Assembly: GCA_963931925.1 (NCBI GenBank) | Contig: OZ007579.1 | Location: 47,185,271-47,249,270, forward strand | DNA length: 64,000 bases | Reading direction: 5' to 3' | Source: Onchidella celtica | Lineage: Eukaryota; Mollusca; Gastropoda; Systellommatophora; Onchidiidae | Part shown: piece by piece, positions 50,429-54,270 of the stretch | Layout: every line of letters begins with the position of its first letter | Position numbering within the stretch: the stretch's first letter is position 1 | Translations under genes and position numbers: made by a program | The notes under the pieces: generated by a model | Told to the model about the DNA's origin: nothing | What the model saw: the letters and a program-made list of their open reading frames with translations, nothing else | Databases searched by the model: none

Positions 50429-51566
50429 TTCGTCATGTACGCATGAGCAATCCCCGTAACGAGCAGAGGGTAGAACTCAACGTGATTTGACAAAACGCCT
50501 TTTTCCTGAAAATGAGGTTCCGAGAAAATCGCGATTTAGTTTTGCGGTCTCTAAATTTAAATGTTGCAAACAAAATGCAGTTTTTATAGACGTAAGTAAC
50601 ACGTTATGGTGTCTTTTAATTTTGTGCAAAGTTTTATTTGAATTGGTGCTGAATTAATTAAACTGTGATGAAAAAGGCGTTTTGTCGAATCAATGCTCAA
50701 ACGTAAAATGCTTCTTTTCAGAAAAAAAGGCGTTTTGTCGCATGAGAGCTAGTCACACAAATGCCTTGTTAAAGAGTTAGGCGTTTCTCTGATAATGTTT
50801 GATACCACAAAACGCCTTTTTTGTTTAGAGAGGGTCCAATGACATGTTCAAAATATCCGTTTCAAAGGACAGCTCTTCTGTGTTTATATCATCTGTTCAC
50901 AAAATGATTTTGTAAATCTCTTTTATAATTCCAAGAATTCTGCTAAGTGTGCACAGTTCGGTCATAAGTCTGCATTGGATTGCAATATTTTTATCGGCCT
51001 GGTTGAGAGGTTTTACATGTAAAGTAAATCAATATATATGGTTTATTCTGACGTCTATAATTAATCAGTTGTCTTGAAGTAAAGACACTGCAAGTCCAAG
51101 CTGAACTTTTATCTGCCCGTTAAAGACATCACTGAGAAAAGGGTCCTGTCCTCCCAAGACTCGTGGTTAAGGCTAAGAGAAAAGGAGAAGGTTGAGGAGA
51201 TTTCGTATTTCAGAGGACATGGTTTGCTTTGACCACAATGGAACACACAGCGTCAACACTGGTGACAGAAGGAAAGGAGAGGAGACTGTTTTGTTGACTC
51301 TTCAATCGTTCAGCATAATTGTTCTCTAAAAAAAAATGATATACCCTTATCCACCAAATCTGCACACAATCACAAACATTAACAACGACCATCCAAACAA
51401 TGTTGACCAAAATAAGGAAAAAAATGATTTTTTATCACACTGTAGAAACTTGTTTTATTACAAAAATTAATAATGTTAGCAAGCACAATATCAAAATACA
51501 TATAGTAAGGCACAGAACAGGGAAGCCCAACGTACCTACATTAAAAACGTCTGAACGAATTAAAGC

Positions 51567-52858
51567 TTATTCTTTTTTTTTTCTCTCTAAGGAGAGAAAA
51601 TGAACGACTTTGATAAATGGAGGGAAATGAGGGGAAGACAATAGATCGGGTTGTGACATGTCCAAACATTCAATGGGGTGATGTTCAGGATGAATGCTGG
51701 ATGACTCCGAGCAATCAAATCGTGCCCCAGAGGGAGCAGTAGCAGCAGTAGTTGATATAGGAGTAGGAGTAAGTTCACTGTACTGTTTCTCGTTGTCCGA
51801 TGTAACGTCATCACCAGAACCATCCGAAGTAAATGGATTCTCTACACTGTCACCATCATCTGATGACAAGTCCCTTGAACTGGGACGTCACTGTCAGTAA
51901 AACTGAGTAAGCAACTCACAGGTTTGGTTGTCACAGGCCTTGCAATCCGAGGATCTGGGGGACCAACAGTGTCCTCCATACCATAGTAGGCTGGCACTTT
52001 GGGTGATTCTGCTTTCTCTTGTTCTGCCTTGTGACGCTTTACCAACGGAGCTTTATCACAGCTGCCACTTGAATCTGAGTGCGACTGAATTATTTTCCTG
52101 TTGGATTAAACAAAACAAAACAAAATTACATACCTGAATTCTTATTTTGTTTGTTTGAAAAAAATAATATGGCAAAGTGACCAGCAACAATTATTATAGG
52201 CTACAATAATTTGCAGCAATGATAAGTGCATAACGAGTGAACTCAAAGCTAAAAATGAACAAAACAAGTACTCTATAATAAGTGTAATCTCACACATCAA
52301 TGAACACAAAAACAAGCATGGTTATGGTATAATTGTGGAATTATTTTTTCCAGAAATTCTTAAACGGTTCATGAACTTTCATGCCTTTTTTGGATACAGT
52401 GAGCTAGTTGCCTGCTTCACTCCATGTCTACATGTTCAAGGCATTTGAAATATGAAAATGATGATGATTTTTCTTTTGCTGTCAACAAGAACCAGCAGAG
52501 GCTCAAAACTTCGTATGGATACATCATGTTCATTACTAGCTACAAGTCTATGCCCTGAGGTTCAGACACATGAAATGTACGATCTTAACAGGAGAAGAAG
52601 AAAAATGAACTTACTGTTTAATGAGCTCTTTGAAAAAGTCCTGAGGATTCATGGGAACAGAGTTGGTGATGATGTGAATGCAGCAGGGCAGAGAGAGAGA
52701 GAGTCTTCACCATGAAGTTCAAATCTGGAACTGTCTTTGTTTTCAAAATTCTGCTGCTTATAAAGTCTCAGGACAAAAAAAGTTGAGTAACAATTGGAAC
52801 GACTACGTCCCCGACTTTGACCGAAGATTCTGACCGTCGTTGGAACATCAAAAGTCAT
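51567..52858 (-). CDS. Hypothetical spliced gene inside the 50479-53608 element
   Basis: Best supported are two exon pieces on the minus strand: DFFKELIKQ ending at a GTAAGT donor (exon end 52615), and an exon starting at 52097 after a good acceptor (TTTAATCCAACAG). Codon phase fits across the 481-517 bp intron: ...FFKELIK-Q-KIIQSHSDSSGSC, then DKAPLVKRHKAEQEKAESPK and YYGMEDTVGPPDPR. A donor-like GTGAGT follows at 51914-51919. Further down, an acidic Ser-rich frame (DGDSVENPFTSDGSGDD, to 51567) may be the last exon. The 5' end could be the ATG at 52652 or 52858; the latter is in a CpG-rich patch. No domain recognised; basic/acidic low-complexity composition suggests a nuclear protein. Confidence 0.35.
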
Positions 52859-52879
52859 CGCGGATCACGGAACTTCCCA

Positions 52880-53320
52880 TGATGGTCAACGGATGACCTC
52901 GGTGGGGGAAAATATCGTTACATTTTCCCTCTTTAACGGGCATCGCCGCCCTGTGTGACGCAACCTCCGATAATCGGCTGTGTGTGAGCTAGCAGAGAAA
53001 GTTAGGCAATGTTAGACGTAGACAAGGTGAAGAAGACGCTCCTTGGTTTGAGTGTTACTGAAACCAATTTTTGATGATCGTTATACACAATAGCGTTAAC
53101 AGTATTATCGACACTTAATACAATACAGGTAATTATTGAGTTAAATGAAGATTTGTGAGAGAAAAAAATTGTCACAAGATAGTTTTATTGAACTAAACAG
53201 AGCCTAAAGTAATAGGATAATAAAAGGAAGCCTGGACTAAATGATTACCAGGGAGGATTCTTAATGAAAAGATATTTTGTCCCAGTAACAAATCATGTCC
53301 AAAAAAGCTTTTTCTCTACT
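52880..53320. other. Interior of the element upstream of the hypothetical gene
   Basis: CpG-containing sequence at about 52850-52990, possibly a promoter for the minus-strand gene; the rest is A/T-rich without genes. Confidence 0.35.
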
Positions 53321-53608
53321 AATATAACGACGGTTCGGCAAAGTAAAGGCGTTTTGTCATCTCACTCGGCCTCAGGCGAACGCCTTTATTTCGAAAAATA
53401 GGCGTTTTGTAAAATTAAAGGGGTTTTGTCTCGCTTCAGCAGAAAAAAGGGCGTTTTGAAAAATTGTTTTTTTAAAACAATATAAAAATGGCTAAGATTT
53501 TTCAAAACCTGATAAGCTCATAAGATGCAGATTGTTGATGAGAATCCAATAATGAAATAAAAAATTTTGGCGCCAACATGCAAAAAGGCGTATTGTCAAA
53601 TCACGTTA

Positions 53609-54270
53609 TGCACAGCGCGCTGTTGCTTGATGCATTAAAAAATAAAATGAAGCCCTGCCAATTGGAATCGGCAAAAATTAAAAGGCCTAGGCCAGGGAGA
53701 AAGATCACAGCAATGGAGATGGCACTGAACCATTAAAGTTGGGCTGGACATGGACAGGTGAGTCGAGCATTATTTTCAGTCATATGAAGGAAATCGCTTA
53801 TCTGCATACACTATGTTGATAAACATCACAAAATATTGTTCTACATAAATGTATTATTATAATGTTTTATTTTGGTAAATCCAGAATTACTTGGCATTAA
53901 CTTGTTGCCCTTGGATCTGGATCTTTTTCTCTAGTATTTTCATATATATATAAAAAAAAAAAAAGGTCTTTTGACTTGTAAACGGGAACGTCTGAGAAGA
54001 GAAATATTTAATTAGACATTGAAGCATTCTTCCAGGCACTAAGTAGTAGTTTCCACTGTTAAAGTTCTAGAGCTTCTTTTTATCAACTGCCCGAGAAGGT
54101 TTTAAAACCATAAACGGTCGCATAGGACCTTTAATCGTAATTTTAGTAAGAAGTACTACTGAAGTAGATCTAGATTGTATAGTATGCAACAGCGAACATT
54201 CTTGCGTCAATCCGACATAGATTCGTAAAAGATTTCCTTAGGATTGGCAGGATGAACGTAGGAGCAGGTC
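53609..54270. other. Non-coding stretch
   Basis: No gene or recognised element. An (AT)n/A-run tract lies at about 53940-53970. Confidence 0.45.

Follow-up and report, generated by a model that had tools for sequence, protein, structure and literature searches.

The window analysed here is a 64-kb stretch of the Onchidella celtica genome (C13:47185271-47249270), and the assembly searched comprises 1.14 Gb in 43 contigs. Positions 50477-53609 of the window are occupied by a 3,133 bp transposon-like element, whose boundaries were set with the help of other copies and which contains a spliced gene on the minus strand. The inverted ends of about 26 bp that the original prediction placed around 3.1 kb are present as two 26-nt arms, 50479-50504 and 53582-53607, that are 96% complementary, and comparison with other copies shows that the element extends two bases beyond each of them. 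The features are as follows.

50473-50476, no strand: left target-site duplication GAAC, equal to its right counterpart GCAC at three of four bases
50477-50504, plus strand: left terminal inverted repeat (TIR), with tip TC where most other copies in the end-pair comparison have CT
50489-50816, no strand: left subterminal GGCGTTTTGTC array, four sites with at most one mismatch, in both orientations
50884-51628, no strand: about 745 bp private to the window copy, between the left end and the gene
51645-52097, minus strand: exon 2, most likely the Ser-rich N-terminal segment of a decayed transposase 5' region
52098-52614, minus strand: GT-AG intron, running from the donor GT at 52614 to an acceptor whose AG ends at 52098
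52615-52652, minus strand: exon 1, from its ATG
53322-53327, minus strand: TATA-like TTATAT, adjoining the right array
53348-53597, no strand: right subterminal GGCGTTTTGTC array, five sites with at most two mismatches
53582-53609, minus strand: right TIR, with tip AT where most other end-scored copies have AG
53610-53613, no strand: right target-site duplication GCAC

Subterminal arrays and a private segment

A cluster of short motifs at both ends had been described from the sequence, and nine of the eleven listed sites are recovered when up to two mismatches are allowed, the sites near 50776 and 53378 being weaker. The total of 22 GGCGTTTTGTC matches (up to two mismatches) in the 64-kb window is unremarkable, as the shuffle mean is 14.9 and 22 or more were reached in seven of 100 shuffles. 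The end zones 50489-50816 and 53348-53597 hold nine of these 22 matches, and eight of the ten matches with no mismatch or one fall within them. The arrays are likely transposase-binding sites. The right array of some other copies has grown into a 72-bp tandem repeat, with approximately ten units in L040, and more generally the subterminal motif unit (59-73 bp) is seen to multiply into tandem arrays within the transposon end (L049, L040). At the position of the window's TTATAT, 12 of 16 other copies have TTATATAAG and the other four TTATAAAG; we infer that this right-end sequence is a putative promoter.

The segment at 50884-51628 is unmatched in the other fetched loci, except for a weak match in L043 that extends to about 50906, and a genome search with 50870-51630 found it a single time. 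Five open reading frames taken from it or crossing its edge gave no match in Pfam. The segment is unaccounted for by simple deletion of a master element, and it may be filler DNA from repair, a capture, or a stretch lost by the other copies.

A dispersed family with a decayed spliced gene

The original prediction had named the lack of a second copy with these ends as the observation that would speak against a transposon-like unit, and many copies sharing them were found genome-wide. A 21-nt TIR pattern with up to two mismatches has 162 genome matches (79 forward and 83 reverse), compared to one forward and no reverse match for the reversed control pattern; the left end, the right end and the interior are each multicopy in genome searches, and the copies are dispersed over C1-C18. 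Searching the whole genome with the exon-2 protein gave 83 matches at E<=1, corresponding to 58 loci, of which 57 (including the window) are close matches and one, L051, is a diverged transposase-like relative. The 57 close loci were taken as family copies, and part of them were fetched. Sixteen aligned copies (L025-L040, the L040 row being about 0.4 kb short at the left end) are 93-99% alike mutually and 82-83% alike to the window copy, and L026, L035, L036 and L039 form a subgroup that is 99% alike.

Of 19 end pairs (the window and 18 others), 15 have an exact 4-bp target-site duplication; the window and L033 match at three of four bases, and L031 and L048 at one of four. L027 yielded no end pair because its left end has more than three mismatches, and none was obtained from L041-L043, L047 or L050. 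A further pair on C6, split over L044 and L045, has ATGA on both sides as read by eye. Two copies, L048 (530 bp) and L049 (1,073 bp), have matched ends and arrays and lack the gene altogether, and L049 is flanked by TACT/TACT.

Several copies are longer than the window element (L044/L045, L046, L047 and L050), and these were rejected as autonomous elements because the extra length consists of nested insertions. The insertion at L044:1645-4092 carries an 815-aa frame, partly made up of copy sequence, that appears reverse transcriptase-like by eye. Those at L046:1694-2892 and L047:149-1319 are apparently one element of about 1.2 kb inserted in two different family copies; one of its ends is marked by GTCACGAGTGGAGTGAG, and GTCACAAATCCCAGACTGGGAGATG lies at the opposite end or close to it. 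At L050:152-6439 a 6.3-kb insertion with an apparent 4-bp border repeat splits the copy near exon 2, and all of its frames are shorter than 150 aa. L052 (C14:38507200-38514200) is a family copy with approximately 5 kb of N in its middle, and a 1,751-aa frame at this place was discarded as a run of N.

The intron had been predicted at exactly 52098-52614, and its GT and AG dinucleotides are kept in all 17 aligned copies, the window included. The reading frame has fared less well. In all 16 other aligned copies exon 1 lacks one base relative to the window, shifting the frame, and L034 additionally lacks four bases just past the donor GT. The window's own exon 2 shifts frame near 51875-51878, and stops are present in 28 of the 35 exon-2 matches that are complete to within one residue. 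The dN/dS values for exon 2 range from 0.35 to 1.46 (12 pairs chosen from 23 rows), and for a segment that is short and probably disordered they give no clear signal either way and may hint at most at an absence of strong constraint. The retained exon-2 protein has no match in Pfam at E<=1. The spliced gene is decayed, and we infer that the remaining exons are relics without a maintained protein.

L051 and the DUF7869 transposons of the same genome

L051 (C8:34096504-34096840) is the sole diverged relative of the exon-2 protein in this genome at E<=1, with 44% identity and an E value of 6.2e-5 in the whole-genome search; a second adjacent piece matches at 53%, but is short (E 0.31) and would not count alone. 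A local comparison of exon 2 and L051 scores 52.4 bits, whereas the best of 300 shuffles reaches 26.6, although the retained part of the protein is only 37% identical to L051. Read by eye, the L051 exon starts at an AG acceptor in the same phase, with one base completing the split codon, and KHPILEICNCHNHCLEKI (from L025) and YSYNEQRNWLFSH (from L034) match KHPVLEACRCTAKCILRI and YSYNERGNWLFSH of L051 with their order kept. Beyond this lies a region of L051 in which Cys, ADMQKV and DDCSSQNKNW stretches are conserved. We read the region of its pieces P3 and P4 as the catalytic part of a transposase, of which the window family would keep the front, and the supposed captured gene is thus most probably what is left, in decayed form, of a transposase's front end. 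P3 and P4 gave no match at E 0.01 in L001-L050, L052 or the window, many of these loci being partial and L052 being interrupted by its N, and the four L051 pieces gave no match to the Pfam DUF7869 model.

Searching the genome with P3 gave 43 matches, which include open frames of 671 aa (L053) and 630 aa (L054). These lie within elements of 4,517 bp and 4,448 bp that are flanked by AACT/AACT and AACA/AACA respectively, and both have TIRs of about 30 bp beginning CTGCCGT. L054 scores over the cut-off for DUF7869 (37 bits versus 26) and L053 falls under it (23.4 versus 26). DUF7869 (PF25273) has at least 150 matches over the cut-off in this genome, with 150 of 306 candidates scored, and is found in none of 14 control genomes. 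L053 and L054 are related to a third frame, in L057, at 25% over 485 residues (E 3e-36) and 27% over 437 residues (E 1e-32), respectively. L057 and L058 are 99.94% alike over 5,255 bp, carry a 1,014-aa frame, and are flanked by AAAT/AAAT and ATTT/ATTT within different flanking sequences; this family has probably been active very recently. The 1,014-aa DUF7869 transposon family is found at 14 or more listed places. L059 and L060 carry a 491-aa frame and have the duplications ATTT/ATTT and ATAT/ATAT, as read by eye from their flanks.

Among the nine relative loci that were read (L051 and L053-L060) seven have a TIR pair, the exceptions being L051 and L055. Six of these seven have an exact 4-bp duplication, although the inverted repeats of L053, L056 and L057 run at least one base past the chosen tips, and the boundaries are therefore partly duplication-based. 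The seventh, L056, spans 4,019 bp with the TIR CTGCCGTGCTCCGACAAAACAC and the imperfect duplication TATG/TATA (three of four bases), and it repeats a GACAAAACRC motif near both ends. It is approximately 80% identical to L051 in P3, and has in common with the window family both its TIR pattern and the GCGTTTTGTC motif. When compared with the window-family TIR, the score of the L056 right arm was equalled by one of 2,000 shuffles and that of the left arm by seven, whereas the TIRs of L053 and L054 show no significant similarity to it (412 and 948 of 2,000 shuffles were as good). The genes in L051, L055 and L056 are all broken: that of L051 lies in separate frames, and there are stops within the L055 P4 and the L056 P3 matches.

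Six Asp residues are invariant in L053, L054 and L057 (D307, D329, D480, D495, D578 and D623 of the L053 frame), and from these we chose D495, D578 and D623 as a candidate DDD triad; the Glu near the third Asp varies among the three proteins. A comparison of L053 with solved structures returned one chance-level match (E 0.48), and L053 and L054 have no match in NCBIfam.

Origin and classification of the window element

We conclude, with a probability of about 0.86, that the unit in the window belongs to the DUF7869 lineage of cut-and-paste DNA transposons, as an internally deleted and non-autonomous member. The TIRs, the 4-bp duplications, the many copies and the two gene-less siblings bear out the original prediction of a transposon-like unit and non-autonomous derivative. 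The placement in the DUF7869 lineage is based on the N-terminal and TIR homology to the relatives; the retained part gave no match to the DUF7869 domain and stops before it. In contrast to the DUF7869 transposons, the window family keeps the N-terminal part only. It resembles a relative that bears the catalytic region, L056, in 4-bp duplication, TIR and subterminal motif, although among the three relatives compared (L053, L054 and L056) this is the only one to which its TIR is clearly alike. In the proposed mechanism an autonomous relative would provide the transposase in trans. This enzyme would bind the subterminal GGCGTTTTGTC sites as well as the TIRs, cut at the CT..AG tips, and insert the element with a stagger of 4 bp. 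Through incomplete repair after excision the transposase gene would have lost its middle, leaving the promoter, exon 1, the intron and exon 2 as relics. The searches turned up no autonomous copy that combines window-type ends with a catalytic region: among the 43 P3 matches, the closest lies 44 kb from any of the 100 listed TIR places (of 162).

Known internally deleted DNA transposons include the P-element KP, Ds and MITE families. The window family resembles these in sharing the ends of larger relatives, in its deleted transposase, in the trans mobilisation proposed for it, and in having short gene-less forms, but differs from them in its transposase, its duplication length and its end sequences.

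The presence of a spliced gene between the ends had also been read as a captured host gene carried as cargo. This is improbable, although the gene is indeed spliced and Ser-rich and has no Pfam match, and although the ends recur in two short copies devoid of the gene, a pattern named beforehand as support for capture. No separate host locus or other non-transposon source for the exon-2 protein was found in this genome at E<=1, and host-gene capture was discarded on the grounds that the one diverged relative, L051, resembles a transposase; the homology to its N-terminus is colinear and shares the intron phase. The decay of the gene speaks against a maintained cargo as well, both in the stops and the shortened exon 1 and in the dN/dS range. 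Still less probable is a self-sufficient new family in which the short protein is itself a transposase or recombinase. The same exon region is kept in the 16 aligned copies and lacks a Pfam match, but it encodes a Ser-rich segment in decay, which the majority of full-length copies are unable to translate. Since subgroups are nonetheless 99% alike, the short protein was not required for amplification; the gene-less L049 has likewise acquired its duplication. The new family with an unrecognised protein that had been proposed holds for the retained part, which no Pfam model recognises, but the homology puts the protein with the DUF7869 transposases, so that the family, though new, is of a kind already known and not something undescribed in principle.

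Least probable of all, and very unlikely, is a chance juxtaposition of a unique gene with a palindromic repeat or an ordinary satellite. Growth of the right array by 72-bp units would suit it, but the array sits inside dispersed elements, and a tandem satellite was rejected on account of the precise ends and the predominance of exact duplications. A more serious alternative, which concerns the same kind of element and is compatible with the preferred explanation, is that the family is mobilised by a diverged L056-type transposase rather than by its own lost master. The likeness of the TIRs and the motif core favours this, as does the failure to find the family's own master at the listed TIR places; however, the TIR identity is partial only and the L051, L055 and L056 genes that were read are broken. 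We regard it as possible, but unlikely.

Returning to the internally deleted DUF7869-type transposon, its superfamily is probably Sola-like, a reading that draws on the 4-bp duplications, the putative DDD-type transposase and the AT-rich duplications of the related families. The available text of the Sola literature describes a superfamily consisting of Sola1, Sola2 and Sola3, with reported TIR lengths of 11-1124 bp (PMC10741241, PMC4455052, PMC3627910, PMC10294476), and gives a 4-bp target-site duplication and a DDD transposase as its features (PMC10741241). The duplications of L057-L060 (AAAT, ATTT, ATTT and ATAT) are of the three kinds printed in the available text of PMC3627910 for Polysphondylium Sola2 (AWWT; ATAT, AAAT, ATTT), whereas those of the window family are not confined to this AT-rich pattern. 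By comparison with published descriptions of Sola, the window family is like it in its 4-bp duplications and TIR length. The candidate Asp triad of L053, L054 and L057 may be a further likeness to Sola, but the window family lacks the catalytic region. Among molluscs, the available text of PMC10294476 places Sola in bivalves only within its sample. A more speculative and rather unlikely reading is that the DUF7869 transposases of this genome constitute a superfamily or major lineage with 4-bp duplications, not yet tied to the Pfam domain, in which some families have tandem-expanding subterminal arrays; the window family would be an array-rich branch that has outlived its own master and is cross-mobilised.

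These analyses remove a candidate case of gene capture and define the anatomy of a transposon family, with its TIR, 4-bp duplication, subterminal arrays and decayed transposase front. They also link DUF7869, an uncharacterised Pfam domain for which a limited literature search (DUF7869 and PF25273) found no mention, to transposons of this genome that have TIRs and are flanked by 4-bp duplications. This connection between DUF7869 and transposons would aid the annotation of proteins that are named solely by DUF7869.
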